64,000 nucleotides of DNA from Arthrobacter sp. PvP023. Lineage in GTDB: Bacteria > Actinomycetota > Actinomycetes > Actinomycetales > Micrococcaceae. A program made the translations under genes and the position numbers. A model generated the notes under the pieces. The model made no database searches. It worked only from the letters and a program-made list of their open reading frames with translations, and was not told the origin of the DNA. The stretch is taken from positions 1,550,001 to 1,614,000 of the forward strand of contig NZ_JAFIBI010000001.1 of assembly GCF_017832975.1 (NCBI RefSeq). Reading direction: 5' to 3'. Positions 57,118 through 63,671 of this stretch are shown here, piece after piece (position 1 is the first letter of the stretch; the number at the start of each line of letters is the position of its first letter).

Positions 57118-58317
57118 TTAGCGGAAGGCGCCGATGCCGGTGATGTGCTGGCCCAGGATGAGGGTGTGGACCTCGTCGGTCCCCTCATAGGTGCGGACCG
57201 ACTCGAGGTTCGAGGCGTGCCGCAACGGCGAGTAGTCAAGGGTGATCCCGTTCCCGCCCAGGATGGAGCGGGCCTCCCGGGCAATACCCAGCGCCTCGCG
57301 TACGTTGTTCAGCTTGCCGAGTGAAATCTGTTCCGGCCGCAGGGTGCCGGCGTCCTTCAGACGGCCCAGGTGGAGCGCCAGCATGGTCCCCTTCTGGATC
57401 TCCAGGAGCATGTTCACCAGCTTCTCCTGGGTCAGCTGGTACCCGGCCAGCGGCCGGCCGAACTGGAGCCGGTCCTGCGAGTACTTCAGGGCGGCCTCGT
57501 AGGAATCACGGGCAGCACCCATGGCACCCCAGGCAATCCCGTACCGCGCTTCGTTGAGGCAGGTGAAGGGGCCCCGCAGGCCTCGGGCACCCGGCAGCAG
57601 GGCCTCCGGACCCAGCCGCACGCCGTCGAACGCCACGTCGCACTGGATCGAGGCGCGCATCGAAAGTTTCCGGTTGATCGGCGTCGCGGTGACCCCGGGA
57701 GTTCCGGCGGGCACCAGGAAGCCGCGGACGCCGTCTTCGGTCATGGCCCACACCACCATCACCCCGGCCACGGAAGCCAGCCCGATCCAGCGCTTGGCGC
57801 CGTCGAGCACCCACCCGGCGTCGTCCCCGGATCCGTCGCGGCGGGCCGTCGTGGTCATGGAGGACGGATCTGATCCGGCAGTCGGTTCGGTCAGGGCGAA
57901 ACAACCGATTACCTCGCCGGCGGCCATCCGGGGGAGCCACTCCTGTTTCTGGTCCTCGGACCCCCACTTGTGGATGGCGGTCATGGCCAGGGAACCCTGC
58001 ACCGAGACGAAGGTGCGGATTCCGGAGTCCCCGGCCTCCAGCTCCATGGCCGCCAGGCCGTACTCGACGGCGGAGCGCCCGGGGCACCGGTAACCCTCCA
58101 GGTGCATGCCGAGCACGCCCAGCTCGCCGAGTTCGGGGGCAAGGTCGAGCGGAAACACGGCGTCGTCGTACCAGCGGGCAATATCCGGTTTGATCCGCTG
58201 CTCCGTGAAATCGCGAATGCGCTCCCGGAGAGCCAGCTCCTCAGCCGTCAGCAGGGCGTCAAGGCCCAGGACATCGGAGGTGTCGGAAACAGCGGGGAGG
58301 TCAGCGGCGTTGCTCAT
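57118..58317 (-). CDS. Acyl-CoA dehydrogenase, glutaryl-CoA dehydrogenase type
   Basis: A 399-residue FAD enzyme. Acyl-CoA dehydrogenase signatures: CFALTEPTAGSDPSSMTTTA, GAKRWIGLASVAGVMVVWA, the DRLQFGRPLAGYQLTQEKL block, and the C-terminal LESVRTYEGTDEVHTLILGQ with the catalytic Glu. The YEGT-TLILG form, ending ITGIGAF, is typical of glutaryl-CoA dehydrogenases. It lies 48 nt after the APC permease gene on the same strand. Probably a step of lysine or aromatic breakdown; exact substrate unproven. Confidence 0.9.
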   Translation of the reverse strand: MSNAADLPAVSDTSDVLGLDALLTAEELALRERIRDFTEQRIKPDIARWYDDAVFPLDLAPELGELGVLGMHLEGYRCPGRSAVEYGLAAMELEAGDSGIRTFVSVQGSLAMTAIHKWGSEDQKQEWLPRMAAGEVIGCFALTEPTAGSDPSSMTTTARRDGSGDDAGWVLDGAKRWIGLASVAGVMVVWAMTEDGVRGFLVPAGTPGVTATPINRKLSMRASIQCDVAFDGVRLGPEALLPGARGLRGPFTCLNEARYGIAWGAMGAARDSYEAALKYSQDRLQFGRPLAGYQLTQEKLVNMLLEIQKGTMLALHLGRLKDAGTLRPEQISLGKLNNVREALGIAREARSILGGNGITLDYSPLRHASNLESVRTYEGTDEVHTLILGQHITGIGAFR

Positions 58318-58365: not shown

Positions 58366-59853
58366 CTATAGCTTGCTGGGCTCCGCCTGCCGTGCCACGA
58401 AGTAGTCCCGGGTGGCGGGGGAGAAGCGGCACACCACGGCCAGTACCACGCCCAGCGCCAGCAGCACCACGCCGCTGACGAAGGCGCCGCCCACGCCGAA
58501 GATCTCCGTATCGCCGTAGGCCGGGTCCCACATCTGGACGGCGGAGATGAAGAACGCCGCAGTCAGCATCAGTGCGCCGAGCAGCGGCAGGATGCCCCGG
58601 AACCAGAGATTGCGGGCGGAAACGCGCAAGGTACCGCGGAAGAACCAGAAGCAGGCGAAGCCGGTCAGCGCATAGTAGAAAGCAATGAACAGGCTGATGG
58701 CGCTGATGGAGTCGGAAAGCAGGTTCTGGCTCAGGAAGCTCATGGCCACGTAGTACACGACGGCGGCGGCCCCCATCACCTGGGTGGAGAACCCCGGAGT
58801 CTGGTTTCGCGGGTGGACTTCGCCGAACTTGGCCGGCAGGGCGCCGTGGACGCCCATGGACAGCGTCCCGCGGGCGGTGGGCAGGATGGTGGTCTGGGTG
58901 GAGGACAGTACCGAGGCCAGCACGGCCACCACGATCAGCCAGCCCCATGGGCCAAGCACAACATCCTTCATGGCCAGGAAGACGTCATCCTGGTTTTCCG
59001 CATTGCCGAGGCCGATGCCGTCCGTGCCCACGGTGGCATACATCATCACCAGGAGCGCCACGGAAACGTAGATGGCCATCAGGACGAAGGCGGAGATGAC
59101 GGCACCGCGGCCGGGCGTCCTGGACGGGTTCTCGGTTTCCTCATTCACGGCCAGGCAGGTGTCCCAGCCCCAATAGATGAAAAGGGCCAGCAGGGCACCG
59201 TGAACCACTGCGCCGGGATCGGCGAAGGCTCCGGCGGGGTTGAACCATTCGAAGTCGAATGCCTGGCCCTCCGGTGCTCCGCCCGCAATCCGGAACACGA
59301 TGGCCAGCGCGAATATGCCCAGCGAAACATACTGCACGTAGGTCAGCACCCGCTGGACGTGCTCGCCGAGCCGGATGCCCCGGTAGTTCACCAGGGTCAT
59401 GAAGACAATGAACACGACGCCGGTGGCCGTCACCAGAAGGTCGTTTTCGGCCAGCGAACCGTCGCCGACCAGCAGCCACAGGTATTGCCCGGCCACCTGG
59501 GCCAGGTTGGCTAGCACCACGATGCCCGCAAGGGCAACGCCCCAGCCGCCCAGCCAGCCCGCCCACGGGCCGAATGCCCGGCGGGCCCAGATGAAGGTGG
59601 TGCCGCAGTCCGGCATGGCGCTGTTCAGTTCTCGGAAGGCGTAGGCGATGAAGAGCACCGGCACAAAGCCCAAGAGGAGGATCAGCGGGGTGTAGTTGCC
59701 ATTGACCGCCACGATCAGGCCCAGCGTGGCGGCGAGTGAATAGACGGGGGCGGTGGACGCCAGCCCCAGCATGACCGAGTCGCCCAGGTCCAGGATGCCG
59801 GCGCGCAGCCCCTTGGACGGGACCTCCGCCGTCGTCGTCGTCCCTGTGCTCAT
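58366..59853 (-). CDS. APC-superfamily permease in the YgiBC-like operon
   Basis: A 495-residue inner-membrane transporter with about twelve helices. APC signature GDSVMLGLASTAPVYSLAAT, AYAFRELNSAMPDCGTTFIW, and the central loop YWGWDTCLAVNEETENPSRT, a sequence seen in the amine/amino-acid branch near YhdG/PuuP-like permeases. ATG 59853 overlaps the stop of the ATP-grasp gene (ATGA), so the two are co-translated. Candidate cargo: a polyamine, amino acid or the product or substrate of the upstream ligase. Confidence 0.87.
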   Translation of the reverse strand: MSTGTTTTAEVPSKGLRAGILDLGDSVMLGLASTAPVYSLAATLGLIVAVNGNYTPLILLLGFVPVLFIAYAFRELNSAMPDCGTTFIWARRAFGPWAGWLGGWGVALAGIVVLANLAQVAGQYLWLLVGDGSLAENDLLVTATGVVFIVFMTLVNYRGIRLGEHVQRVLTYVQYVSLGIFALAIVFRIAGGAPEGQAFDFEWFNPAGAFADPGAVVHGALLALFIYWGWDTCLAVNEETENPSRTPGRGAVISAFVLMAIYVSVALLVMMYATVGTDGIGLGNAENQDDVFLAMKDVVLGPWGWLIVVAVLASVLSSTQTTILPTARGTLSMGVHGALPAKFGEVHPRNQTPGFSTQVMGAAAVVYYVAMSFLSQNLLSDSISAISLFIAFYYALTGFACFWFFRGTLRVSARNLWFRGILPLLGALMLTAAFFISAVQMWDPAYGDTEIFGVGGAFVSGVVLLALGVVLAVVCRFSPATRDYFVARQAEPSKL

Positions 59854-61070
59854 AGTGCGATACCTGCTTTGCTGGAGGAGGCCGAAGCGGCCTGGACTGA
59901 AAGGGGTGCCGGGGCGTCGATCGTGTTGGGGACGAACCGGCAGAAGTAATCGGTGATGGGGCCGTCCGATTCGCGGATGCCGCAGCCCACGGACTCGCCA
60001 TCCACCACCCAGAGGCCCAGAACCGGGTGGTTGCCGTCGAAGTCGGGCAGGGAGTGGAACTGCTGGTAACACCAGCCCTCGCGCCCGTAGCCGCCCGGCT
60101 GCTCCATGTTGATGCCGGCAGCGTGGATCTTGATGTTGTCCCCTTCGCGGCCGTGCAGCGGCTTGGCTACCCATTCCTTCAGCGGCCCGGGTTCGTTCAG
60201 GTAAGCCGGGAGGAGGTTGGGGTGGTCAGGGTACAGGTGCCACAACGCGGCCAGGAGTGCCTTGTTGGACAGGAGCATTTTCCAGGCCGGCTCCACCCAG
60301 CGCGGATTGTGGGCACGTTGCAGCAGCCGCTGGCCGAAGGGTTCCTTAATCATCAGTTCCCACGGATACAGCTTGAATATCGTGCTGATCATGAAGTTGT
60401 CCAGGTCCACAAAGCGGTTCAGGTTGGGGTCCCAGCCGATGTCGGACATGTTGATGCCGATGGTGGTCCAGCCGCCCTGGCCGGCGACGTCCCGCATGTA
60501 GGCCGCCGTCATCCAGTCCTCGCCGGACTGCTCGGCTTCCGAGTGCGCAATGTGCAGGGTGCTCATGCCGGTGCGGTACTGGAGTTTCTTCCACTGCCGG
60601 ATCAGGGCTTCATGGATGCCGTTCCACTGGTCCTTCTCCGGGAATACGTCCTGCAGCCAGAACCATTGCGCCACGGAGGCCTCGATCAGCCCCGTGGGCG
60701 TGTCCGCGTTGTACTCGAGCATCTTGGCAGGGCCGCCGTGGCCGTCGTAGACGAAGTCGAAGCGGCCGTAGATGTCCATGTCCCCGGCCTGCAGTGATTC
60801 CGCGGCCAGCTCCAGCGCCTGCGGACCGATACCGATGTTGCCCATGGCCCCGGTGGCCAGGTATTTGGCTGCCTCAAGGCACATCAGGTGCATGTCCTCG
60901 GCGGTCTTCTCGAGGGTTTCCACCTCGTCCATGGTGAATTCGTAGTACGCAGACTCGTTCCAGTACTCGATCTTCTTGCCGTCAGGCATGGTGGTGGTGG
61001 AAAAGACCAGCCCCTGTTCCTCGATCTTCCGCTTCCAGTCGGGCCTGGGGGTTGCAGTCAGTCTCTTCAC
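59850..61070 (-). CDS. Glutathionylspermidine-synthase-like ATP-grasp ligase (YgiC/YjfC type)
   Basis: A 406-residue cytoplasmic protein homologous to the synthetase half of Gsp, without the amidase half. Landmarks: YYEFTMDEVETLEKTAEDMH, YGRFDFVYDGHGGPAKMLEY with NADTPTGLIEAS, MTAAYMRDVAGQGGWTT, and the C-terminal ATP-site segment NIKIHAAGINMEQPGGYGREG. It is a peptide-ligase-like activity. E. coli YgiC and YjfC have no established reaction. Actinobacteria generally use mycothiol, so glutathione is an unlikely substrate. GTG 61070 has GGGAGG 6 nt upstream and lies 2 nt after the YgiB-like stop. Confidence 0.88.
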   Translation of the reverse strand: MKRLTATPRPDWKRKIEEQGLVFSTTTMPDGKKIEYWNESAYYEFTMDEVETLEKTAEDMHLMCLEAAKYLATGAMGNIGIGPQALELAAESLQAGDMDIYGRFDFVYDGHGGPAKMLEYNADTPTGLIEASVAQWFWLQDVFPEKDQWNGIHEALIRQWKKLQYRTGMSTLHIAHSEAEQSGEDWMTAAYMRDVAGQGGWTTIGINMSDIGWDPNLNRFVDLDNFMISTIFKLYPWELMIKEPFGQRLLQRAHNPRWVEPAWKMLLSNKALLAALWHLYPDHPNLLPAYLNEPGPLKEWVAKPLHGREGDNIKIHAAGINMEQPGGYGREGWCYQQFHSLPDFDGNHPVLGLWVVDGESVGCGIRESDGPITDYFCRFVPNTIDAPAPLSVQAASASSSKAGIAL

Positions 61071-61072
61071 GC

Positions 61073-61909
61073 CTAGCCTCCCGTGCTTCCGCCCTTGGAG
61101 CTGCTGCCGAAGCCGCCCCTGCTGACCGTGCCGCCCTTGGTGCTGTAGCCCTTGGACGATTTCGCCCCCTGCGGCACAGTTTTGGTGAAGCCGGTGTACT
61201 GAGAACGGTTCTGCCCGACCGCCGGAACGCTGGCGCCGCGCGAGTAGAAGTACCAGGCGTAAATGCCGGAGCTCCGCCCGGCGCTGCTGCTGTTGTCGCA
61301 CTGGGCGTCGTCCACGCGCTCGCCGGTTTCGTCGTTGAAACAGACCTGGGCGTAGTCGGCCTCCGCCTCGTTGCTGGCCACGATGGCGGTGATGGTGCCT
61401 GCCAGCAGGGCAGTGACGCCGAGGCCGACGACGACGGTGCGGCGCTGCGAGCGCTTCTTCCGTGCCGCTGCCTCCCGCTTGCGTTCACGCTCAAAGGGAT
61501 CGATGACCGGGCCCGGTCCTGCCCCCGGTGACGGAAGCGGGCCCGCGCCCGGCGTAGCACCCGTCCCTCCGGCCTGGCCCTTCTGCCGCCGTCCGGGCTT
61601 CATGCCGGGGTTCCCCGGTTCGGGCGCTCCTCTGCCCGCTGCCGAATCGTTGAGCAGTTCCGGGCGGAGCTCCGGTTTGGGAACCTGCCAGGGCGGCAGC
61701 TGACCCGTCGCCGGATCATGGGGCTGCGGCGTGAAGTCCCCGGGCGCGGTCATCCACCCGGGTTCGGAAGCCCCGGGACCACCGGCTCCTGCCGGCTCGC
61801 TATCCGGGCGCTGTTGGCCGGAACGGTTGTCCTCTGGATCCTTCGTTGGATCCTTCGAAGGGTCCTGGCTCGGGTCCTGCGGTTCCATGGGTCCCCCTTG
61901 GTTGTCCAT
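61073..61909 (-). CDS. YgiB-like (DUF1190) membrane protein
   Basis: A 278-residue protein. A Pro/Gly/Asp-rich cytoplasmic region (about residues 1-150), one transmembrane helix (TVVVGLGVTALLAGTITAIVA, positions cut here to its core, about 157-177), then an exported domain. That domain has two Cys (AQVCFNDETGE; DDAQCDN) and ends TVSRGGFGSSSKGGSTGG, matching the TVTRGGFG tail of E. coli YgiB. The YgiB-YgiC gene pair is conserved in proteobacteria, supporting the call. The start is uncertain: ATG 61909 is used; ATG 61888 has a better AGGGGG site. Confidence 0.78.
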   Translation of the reverse strand: MDNQGGPMEPQDPSQDPSKDPTKDPEDNRSGQQRPDSEPAGAGGPGASEPGWMTAPGDFTPQPHDPATGQLPPWQVPKPELRPELLNDSAAGRGAPEPGNPGMKPGRRQKGQAGGTGATPGAGPLPSPGAGPGPVIDPFERERKREAAARKKRSQRRTVVVGLGVTALLAGTITAIVASNEAEADYAQVCFNDETGERVDDAQCDNSSSAGRSSGIYAWYFYSRGASVPAVGQNRSQYTGFTKTVPQGAKSSKGYSTKGGTVSRGGFGSSSKGGSTGG

Positions 61910-62063: not shown

Positions 62064-63671
62064 ATGGCAGCAGTTGAATCCGCCCGCGGCGGCGCCGCCC
62101 GATCCGGCCCCGGACGGTCGGGGACGGCAGGTTCGGGGACGGCAGCCCCGGAGCTCCAGGGCATCGGGCGGAGCCGCTTTGTCGTCGGCATGGTGCTTGC
62201 CGTGGTCCTGCCGCCCGGAGTGGAAGTACTGGTGACCCTGGCGGGATACCGGAACTTCGCCATCATCATGCTGCTACATCTCGCGGTCGCGGTGGCGGTG
62301 GCTGCCATCGGGGGATTCTGGCCCGCCGTCGTGGCAGCGGTCCTGGGCACCACGCTCCTCAACTACTTCTCAGCCGATCCCGTGGGCACGCTGTCCATCG
62401 CCGATCCCTCCACCCTGTTCACCCTCCTGGTGTTCCTGGCCGTCGCCTGCAGCGTGGCCCTTGCCGTTGGCCTGGCGACCCGCCGGGCGCAGGAAGCCGC
62501 CAGGTCCGGGGCTGAAGCCACGGCTTTGAGCGAGCTGTCCCTGCGGATCCTCAGTTCCGACGGCAGCCTGGAGACGTTCCTTGAGAAGGTCCGCAGCAGG
62601 CTGGGGGTGGACGCCGTGACCTTGCTGGCCGACAGCTCACCCGGCAGTTCACCCGGCAGCCCGCATGGGGCGGGACCCGCCGCCGGAAGCGTTCCGGGGC
62701 GGCCCCGTAGCAACAACACCTCATGGGCAGTGCTCGCCAGTGCCGGGACCAGCGCGCCGGTGACGCACGCGGCTGCCGACCACGCCGTCGTCGTCGATTC
62801 CCGCTACACGCTGCTGATCAACGGCGGACCGCCGGCCGGTCATACGTTTTCCGGACAGCACCAGCGCATGCTGGCCGCTTTCGGGGCGTTCCTGGTGGCG
62901 ATCCTGGAACGGCGCCAACTGGCGGCGAGCATGCAGGACAACCAGCGGCTCTCCGAGGGCAACAAGATGCGCACGTCCATCCTGAGGGCGGTCAGCCATG
63001 ACCTGCGCACCCCGCTGGCCGGGATCAAGCTGGCCGTCAGCAGCCTGCGCCAGGAGGATGTGCAGTTTTCCCCGGAGGACGAACGCGAACTGCTCGCCAC
63101 CATCGAGGATTCGGCCGACAGGCTGGACCACCTGATCGGCAACCTGCTGGACATGTCCCGGATCACGGCTGACTCGGTCAACCCGCTCCTGCGCGGGCTG
63201 GGCTGGGCGGACGTGCTGCCCGATGCGCTCAAGGGGCTGCCTGCGGCGCGGATCCGCGTGGAACTGCCGCCCAACCTGCCCCGCGTGGAGGCCGACGCCG
63301 GGATGCTGGAGCGCGTGGTGGCGAACCTGGTGGAGAACGCGCTCAAGTACGCGCCGGACGCCGATGTGGTGCTGACAGCGCGGGCGGGGGAGGGAATCGC
63401 ACTGGCAGGCAGGCCTGCCAGCGAATTCCGCGTGGTGGACCATGGCGCCGGAGTTGCCCCGGCGGCGGTGCTGGACATGTTTCAGCCGTTCCAGCGGCTC
63501 AACGATTCCCAGCGCACCGGAGGCGGCCGCACCGTGGGGATCGGGCTTGGCCTGGCCGTTGCCAACGGCTTCACCGAAGCCATGGGAGGAATCCTAGCGG
63601 CGGAGCCGACGCCGGGCGGCGGGCTGACCATGGTGGTCACCCTTCCGCTGTGGGAGGGTCCGCTGCCGTGA
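62064..63671 (+). CDS. KdpD-like sensor histidine kinase lacking the N-terminal sensor domain
   Basis: A 535-residue membrane kinase. Four-helix DUF4118-type region (about residues 35-145), a GAF-like domain (about 155-290), HisKA with phosphoacceptor His312 in AVSHDLRTPLAGIKLA, and HATPase motifs NLVENALKYAPDADV and VGIGLGLAVANGFTEAMGG. This is the C-terminal half of KdpD; the usual N-terminal KdpD/Usp module of about 370 residues is absent. It overlaps the response regulator gene (GTGA). Expected role: K+ or osmotic signalling to the Kdp pump, but no kdpFABC lies in the window. Confidence 0.9.
   Translation: MAAVESARGGAARSGPGRSGTAGSGTAAPELQGIGRSRFVVGMVLAVVLPPGVEVLVTLAGYRNFAIIMLLHLAVAVAVAAIGGFWPAVVAAVLGTTLLNYFSADPVGTLSIADPSTLFTLLVFLAVACSVALAVGLATRRAQEAARSGAEATALSELSLRILSSDGSLETFLEKVRSRLGVDAVTLLADSSPGSSPGSPHGAGPAAGSVPGRPRSNNTSWAVLASAGTSAPVTHAAADHAVVVDSRYTLLINGGPPAGHTFSGQHQRMLAAFGAFLVAILERRQLAASMQDNQRLSEGNKMRTSILRAVSHDLRTPLAGIKLAVSSLRQEDVQFSPEDERELLATIEDSADRLDHLIGNLLDMSRITADSVNPLLRGLGWADVLPDALKGLPAARIRVELPPNLPRVEADAGMLERVVANLVENALKYAPDADVVLTARAGEGIALAGRPASEFRVVDHGAGVAPAAVLDMFQPFQRLNDSQRTGGGRTVGIGLGLAVANGFTEAMGGILAAEPTPGGGLTMVVTLPLWEGPLP

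Follow-up and report, generated by a model that had tools for sequence, protein, structure and literature searches.

An Arthrobacter operon pairing a YgiC-like ATP-grasp ligase with an exported protein whose conserved RGGFG tail is a candidate acid substrate

The 64,000-nucleotide stretch of the Arthrobacter sp. PvP023 genome analysed here (at its full length, 'the window') carries on its minus strand a compact operon of three genes, encoding an exported protein with a distinctive C-terminal tail (hereafter the partner), an ATP-grasp ligase related to E. coli YgiC, and a permease of the APC family. Their positions and principal features are as follows:

61888–61073, minus strand: exported tail-bearing partner, 271 amino acids, no Pfam or NCBIfam family
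61376..61438, minus strand: transmembrane (TM) segment of the partner, about residues 151–171 (hydropathy script, approximate)
61106..61120, minus strand: RGGFG tail motif, residues 257–261 (alignment of 60 sequences)
61076..61081, minus strand: C-terminal Gly-Gly, residues 270–271 (putative acceptor carboxylate)
61070–59850, minus strand: YgiC-like ATP-grasp ligase, 406 amino acids (PF03738, YgiC structure match)
59853–58366, minus strand: APC-family amino acid/amine permease, 495 amino acids (AA_permease_2 match)

The partner's stop codon (TAG, 61075–61073) is followed after a 2-nucleotide gap by the ligase start (GTG at 61070), and the ligase stop (TGA) and permease start (ATG) share the bases ATGA at 59853–59850. 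An earlier note on this DNA had described a tight three-gene operon, and its strand, gene order, gap and overlap are all present. That note also called the genes 'fused in translation', which is apt insofar as they overlap, but they do not form one polypeptide. The partner has two candidate starts, ATG 61888 and ATG 61909; the second, previously taken as the limit of the operon, is a real alternative, but the first has the better-placed ribosome-binding site and is provisionally favoured.

The ligase matches PF03738 (GSP_synth) across the full model (E 5.9e-147, profile positions 1–371 of 371), in agreement with its earlier description as a Gsp-synthetase-like ATP-grasp enzyme, and its closest solved structures by sequence are those of E. 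coli YgiC (7uk8, E 2.4e-80) and YjfC (7uk6, E 1.5e-66). It lacks an amidase domain; the synthetase part alone matches within its 406 residues. The statement that the E. coli pair has no assigned reaction is out of date: database annotation describes both YgiC and YjfC as peptide–spermidine ligases, and in the passages available from one paper they are termed peptidylpolyamine synthetases, with Pederick et al. 2023 cited as the source (PMC12568646). By analogy with these relatives, for which the reaction class is known, the window ligase would be of a kind that couples an acid to an amine. The literature passages covered name no natural peptide for E. coli YgiC or YjfC.

Ligase loci were surveyed in three sets: 41 from the genus, 88 from the class (omitting the window and genome G002, two of the 90 hits, which were placed in the genus set) and 79 from named genomes, giving 208 loci with 200 distinct ligase sequences; these loci are related, and counts across them are not independent events. 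Residues R103, D105, E119, N121, K270, K303 and R366, which we take to have active-site roles, are each present in 87 of the 88 class loci, the remaining one being a gap. A tail-bearing open reading frame (ORF), sought on the same strand near the ligase with no condition on its last residue, was picked at every locus (41/41 genus, 88/88 class and 79/79 named). Six picks (L102, L233, L123, L129, L132 and L133) lay in the wrong frame, and the true tail was identified in each by reading. Such wrong frames are removed by a stricter pick that demands a hydrophobic, basic-flanked segment, which is found in 73/88 class, 41/41 genus and 72/79 named partners; the 15 class and seven named loci that fail this demand were counted by eye. 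An earlier pick had required Gly, Ser or Ala at both last positions, so that its end counts were biased, and earlier picks also took a wrong ORF in L240 and L098. One locus (L111) is a short contig, and two (L109 and L113) have split ligase frames.

By scripts and reading, the partner adjoins the ligase or sits one gene away in 88/88 class loci. In seven of these (L099–L105) it lies approximately 450–550 nucleotides upstream of the ligase, with a DUF350-like ORF between them, and in L098 it lies downstream and has a loose tail core, TGFG. The tail is kept in this and five other loci where the partner follows the ligase (L266, L268, L270, L274 and L283).

The window partner ends in TVSRGGFGSSSKGGSTGG and E. 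coli YjfM in TVSRGGYGRSSSARGHWGG; an RGGFG...GG-type tail is common to E. coli YgiB, YjfM and the window partner. The last residue is Gly in 41/41 genus partners, in 59 of the 88 class partners (with Ser in 28 and Ala in one, L259) and in 53 of the 79 named ones (Ser in 26). As background, 947 of 4,465 ORFs of at least 250 amino acids at the class and named loci, spurious ORFs included, end in Gly or Ser. An end of this type would offer a small-residue carboxylate, suited to a peptide–amine ligase. A strict form of the tail, RGG[FLIAMY]G, occurs in 150 of 179 partner picks (pre-chosen with a looser motif). The other ORFs at these loci number 21,993, and four contain it: three (L164, L240 and L270) are real tail proteins near a ligase, and the fourth (L183) looks like chance. 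This strict-motif control disfavours a chance or low-complexity origin of the tail.

A further set of 21 plasmid loci, selected for diversity from 158 plasmid records matching YgiC, contained a tail protein by the ligase in 18 cases, spread over Pseudomonadota, Actinomycetota and Bacillota: Rhizobium (two), Sulfitobacter, Rhodobacter, Paracoccus, Methylorubrum, Tistrella, Roseomonas, Paraburkholderia, Pseudomonas (three), Vibrio, Acinetobacter, Tsukamurella, Arthrobacter, Geobacillus and Bacillus. A lipobox or TM segment is present in 15 of the 18 plasmid partners, the N-termini of L269, L272 and L283 standing outside this count. Two Azospirillum loci are without a partner (in one of them, L285, it was sought among annotated neighbours only), and in their ligases the residues corresponding to D105, E119, K270 and K303 are likewise lost. 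No tail partner is present in the 6-kb locus of E. coli gss.

Some loci depart from the simple pair. Actinomadura barringtoniae (L164:5697-6994) has two different tail-bearing lipoproteins in tandem ahead of one ligase; a Roseomonas locus (L274:4926-7276) has two ligase paralogues side by side, accompanied by a DUF350 gene and a single tail-bearing partner; and on an Arthrobacter plasmid (L284:3376-3879) the tail-bearing partner is annotated, apparently wrongly, as a tRNA-dihydrouridine synthase.

The window partner comprises a Pro- and acid-rich N-terminus, a basic stretch, one TM segment with its N-terminal side inside, a small ectodomain with two conserved Cys residues and the RGGFG tail; charge bias in the hydropathy script places its C-terminus outside. 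Among class partners, 84 of 85 have a hydrophobic segment ahead of the tail domain (the single exception, L240, being a wrong ORF pick), 82 of 85 have the N-terminus inside by charge bias and 57 of 85 have a lipobox-like Cys; the first two features are each found in 41/41 genus partners. Searches of Pfam and NCBIfam with the partner returned no family in either. The first protein of the operon had been taken previously for a DUF1190, YgiB-like protein, an assignment that its body does not bear out: PF06693 (DUF1190) gives no match to it, with YgiB (2.9e-55) and YjfM (2.9e-17) as positive controls, and only the tail matches. An AlphaFold2 model of the ectodomain has a mean predicted local distance difference test score (pLDDT) of 75, lowest at the end of the tail, and a Foldseek search of this model against the PDB gave no matches at E up to 10.

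Alignment of 60 actinobacterial partners (the window and 59 of the 76 partners extracted from named loci) gave a mean column identity of 25%. Only one Cys and two Gly residues of RGGFG are invariant; the second Cys and the R, G and F of the same motif are the only others conserved in at least 90% of sequences. In eight proteobacterial partners invariance is limited to two N-terminal residues, two Cys (that of the lipobox and one other), the last Gly and three positions in the tail. When the full actinobacterial partners were compared with this proteobacterial DUF1190 set by hhalign, 21 columns of the tail alone aligned (E 5.4e-5, probability 67%); with tails removed there was no match (probability 0.1%, E 0.43), within the reach of a DUF1190 profile of eight rows, which leaves very distant kinship possible. 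Because only the tails align and the bodies do not match, the partner body is, at the level of sequence, replaced or diverged past recognition, while the tail and ligase have stayed together. As judged from these alignments and loci, the tail is the one feature of the partner that tracks the ligase across phyla.

Since the tail is the shared part and the body differs, the partner itself points to a role as acid substrate and not as helper. We lean toward reading the operon as a C-terminal amidation system, in which the C-terminal carboxylate of the tail would be joined to an amine. A cytosolic YgiC-like ligase would recognise the RGGFG tail of its partner and use ATP to activate the C-terminal Gly (or Ser) carboxylate as an acyl phosphate for coupling to an amine, of which spermidine or another polyamine would be the simplest choice. 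The modified partner would subsequently be held in the membrane or exported, displaying a polycationic C-terminus at the cell surface, and in this genus the overlapping APC permease may supply or recover the amine. The tail as acid substrate, the modification ahead of export, the identity of the amine and the cargo of the permease are the parts that we infer. Whether the scheme extends to a widespread system, in which dedicated ATP-grasp ligases put polyamines or other amines on RGGFG...G(G/S) tails of exported proteins whose bodies are free to vary, seems to us an evenly balanced question.

The amidation reading is favoured by the enzyme class of the ligase, the tail common to YgiB, YjfM and the window partner, its recurrence at the surveyed and plasmid loci and its rarity in other ORFs, its constancy where the body changes or the gene order flips, the two tail-bearing lipoproteins served by one ligase in Actinomadura, the lack of a tail partner at gss, and the coincidence in Azospirillum of a missing partner with lost ligase residues. 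Several observations weigh against this proposal. Its weakest link is timing: with the tail outside the membrane and the ligase driven by ATP, modification would have to precede export. Approximately one third of actinobacterial tails end in Ser and not Gly (28/88 class, 26/79 named). In an AlphaFold2 model of a natural read-through chain of tail and ligase, the ligase was confidently predicted, the tail had a pLDDT of 24–26 and docking was not seen; this is a weak test, since the construct blocks the C-terminus of the tail, and neither this model nor that of the ectodomain speaks for or against docking. The Geobacillus, Bacillus and Pseudomonas FeN3W ligases are only about 25% identical to YgiC, and the tail cores beside them are looser (SGLG, SGIG and RAGGY). 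In a Photobacterium locus (L264) the ligase looks intact and no partner was found nearby. Finally, a spermidine synthase (PF01564) was not found in the window's own genome, so spermidine may not be made there.

One related publication, Iyer 2009, is reportedly on amidoligases. The literature passages covered do not mention the YgiB tail as a ligase substrate, and Pederick 2023, Sui 2012 and Iyer 2009 may already state it. Within that coverage the gene pair is of a known kind, and what appears to be new is the proposed substrate, the permease and a partner body outside DUF1190.

The RGGFG motif lies mostly 7–11 residues before the end of the protein and is more strictly conserved than the final residues, and once exported the tail is outside the membrane, all of which would suit a docking tag that anchors the ligase to the membrane or regulates it, the enzyme itself making a soluble peptide–polyamine from another acid. 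We regard this as unlikely, if still deserving of consideration: a docking tag would not need the Gly or Ser last residue found in 87 of 88 class partners (Ala in L259), the enzyme class takes its name from the ligation of peptides, and a docked tail that is exported could not remain in the cytosol.

The model put forward in the earlier note, in which the ligase couples a small acid to an amine that the cell takes up or exports, with the exported protein as a separate helper, gains from the co-inheritance of permease and ligase within the genus. Much of it survives, in that the enzyme is of the acid–amine ligase kind, its partner is exported and the permease is tied to the pair in the genus; the partner, however, is more likely the acid substrate than a YgiB-like helper. 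Outside the genus, the class survey shows no close permease homologue in ligase neighbourhoods, in contrast to a tail protein in 88/88, and the model leaves unexplained why tail and ligase are constant while the body changes. It seems to us distinctly improbable.

Gly-rich C-terminal sorting signals exist, and the tail might accordingly be a sorting or protease signal for another envelope enzyme, with the ligase merely co-regulated; since the tail goes with the ligase in different phyla and in different gene orders, we think this very unlikely, in loci that were not searched for proteases. Least credible, indeed barely so, is that the terminal Gly-Gly arises as a side effect of the ligase gene's ribosome-binding site (GGAGG) just downstream, for although gaps are often 0–4 nucleotides and the last codons then overlap the expected Shine-Dalgarno region, Gly or Ser ends occur in 18 of 19 picks that lie more than 60 nucleotides from the ligase or downstream of it (the other, L102, was picked in the wrong frame, and its true partner ends in FG) and in the downstream partners of L266, L268, L270 and L283, and RGGFG itself lies too far upstream.

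The permease of the window matches AA_permease_2 (E 3.9e-29, 102 bits against a cut-off of 27), and no NCBIfam model scored above its own cut-off. Of 61 genomes of the genus, 42 have the ligase, 43 the partner and 41 the permease (at E up to 1e-150); the permease is found in 41 of the 42 ligase-bearing genomes and in none of the 19 without a ligase. All three genes are present in 41 genomes and none, at the cut-offs used, in 18. The remaining two are G030 (L215), with ligase, partner and a permease reduced to a 156-amino-acid piece, and G003, in which a scar (L280, G003:C3:124000-136000) records a single deletion that took out the tail, the ligase and most of the permease, leaving the partner body fused in frame with the last part of the permease gene. 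This joint presence and absence of the three genes argues that the operon is not a chance arrangement. A second, divergent copy of the gene set is found on another contig of G058, and an Arthrobacter caoxuetaonis plasmid carries a tail protein, a ligase and an annotated APC permease.

Beyond the genus survey, permease homologues occupy the same place in Psychromicrobium (L146, 78%) and in a Micrococcaceae metagenome-assembled genome (L148, 59%). The expectation that the permease would be a regular member of actinobacterial loci, with its absence from most of them named in advance as refuting, failed for ligase neighbourhoods: a close homologue lies near the ligase in 1 of 88 class loci, and that one belongs to the same genus. 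Three more class loci, L099, L100 and L103 (of the seven L099–L105 loci, from one other genus), have a permease homologue 37–39% identical, on the far side of the partner; in these the order is APC permease, partner, DUF350 and ligase, the permease stop overlapping the partner start by ATGA or GTGA. The permease is therefore rejected as a universal part in ligase neighbourhoods, its genome-wide presence having been checked within the genus only. DUF350 genes are near the ligase in 43/88 class loci (directly after it in 34 of the 43) and in 31/79 named loci, in all 31 after the ligase; none was found in the 41 genus loci or in the window's own genome, and PspA-like neighbours, sought at loci only, were in 0/41 genus loci. 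The permease is tightly tied to the operon but only in particular lineages, and stands at the position often held by DUF350; that it supplies the amine is a reasonable guess. Spermidine synthase was considered as a correlate of the permease and proved uninformative, because DUF350-bearing genomes G075, G146, G200, G220 and G358 are likewise without a PF01564 match.

Two neighbouring genes adjoin the operon. Downstream of the permease on the same strand, after a 48-nucleotide gap, is an acyl-CoA dehydrogenase gene (57118–58317, minus strand); one is likewise found after the permease, same-stranded and within 4 kb, in 34 of 41 genus loci, and E. coli yjfC is likewise followed by an acyl-CoA dehydrogenase homologue, aidB, a likeness that may be coincidence. 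On the other side is a divergent sensor kinase gene with a DUF4118 domain (62064–63671, plus strand); 10 of the 41 genus loci, the window among them, have a homologue on the strand opposite to that of the ligase.

The amidation reading offers a candidate natural peptide for the two peptide–spermidine ligases of E. coli, namely the tail of the neighbouring exported protein, which stands beside nearly every ligase examined, and so turns the substrate question into one directly testable by mass spectrometry in a laboratory strain. If true, it would imply a general bacterial C-terminal polyamine modification of envelope proteins, one that would connect the supply of polyamines with the cell surface and with the PspA stress operons in which these genes can occur.

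Among known systems, E. coli GspSA (gss) belongs to the same ATP-grasp family, and its residues R316, N332 and R598 align with R103, N121 and R366 of the window ligase; unlike GspSA, the window ligase has no amidase domain, and the gss locus has no tail-bearing neighbour. The acid substrate of gss is free glutathione.

PspA-linked operons have been described with a GspS-like ATP-grasp enzyme, DUF350 and DUF1190, and a link to polyamines was proposed for them (PMC11237479); the passages available from that paper describe DUF1190 as a metal-chelating lipoprotein and do not mention a tail. As far as those passages go, these operons share with the window a ligase and an exported protein, but PspA and DUF350 were not found at the window locus. 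In fission yeast SUMO, according to the portions of the source available, a C-terminal Gly-Gly carboxylate is joined to spermidine (PMC12270671). The proposed acceptor would be the same chemical group here, whereas the SUMO reaction uses eukaryotic E1 and E2 enzymes that are unrelated to the ligase.

The closest comparison is with the YgiB–YgiC and YjfM–YjfC pairs of E. coli. Their partners are DUF1190 lipoproteins, which the body of the window partner is not, and the window locus differs further in having an APC permease and in that DUF350 and other yjf homologues were not found there. In common are the ligase (40% and 38% identical to YgiC and YjfC, respectively), a partner gene immediately preceding it (separated from it in E. 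coli by 5 and 2 nucleotides, respectively), and an exported partner that carries the RGGFG/RGGYG...GG tail.

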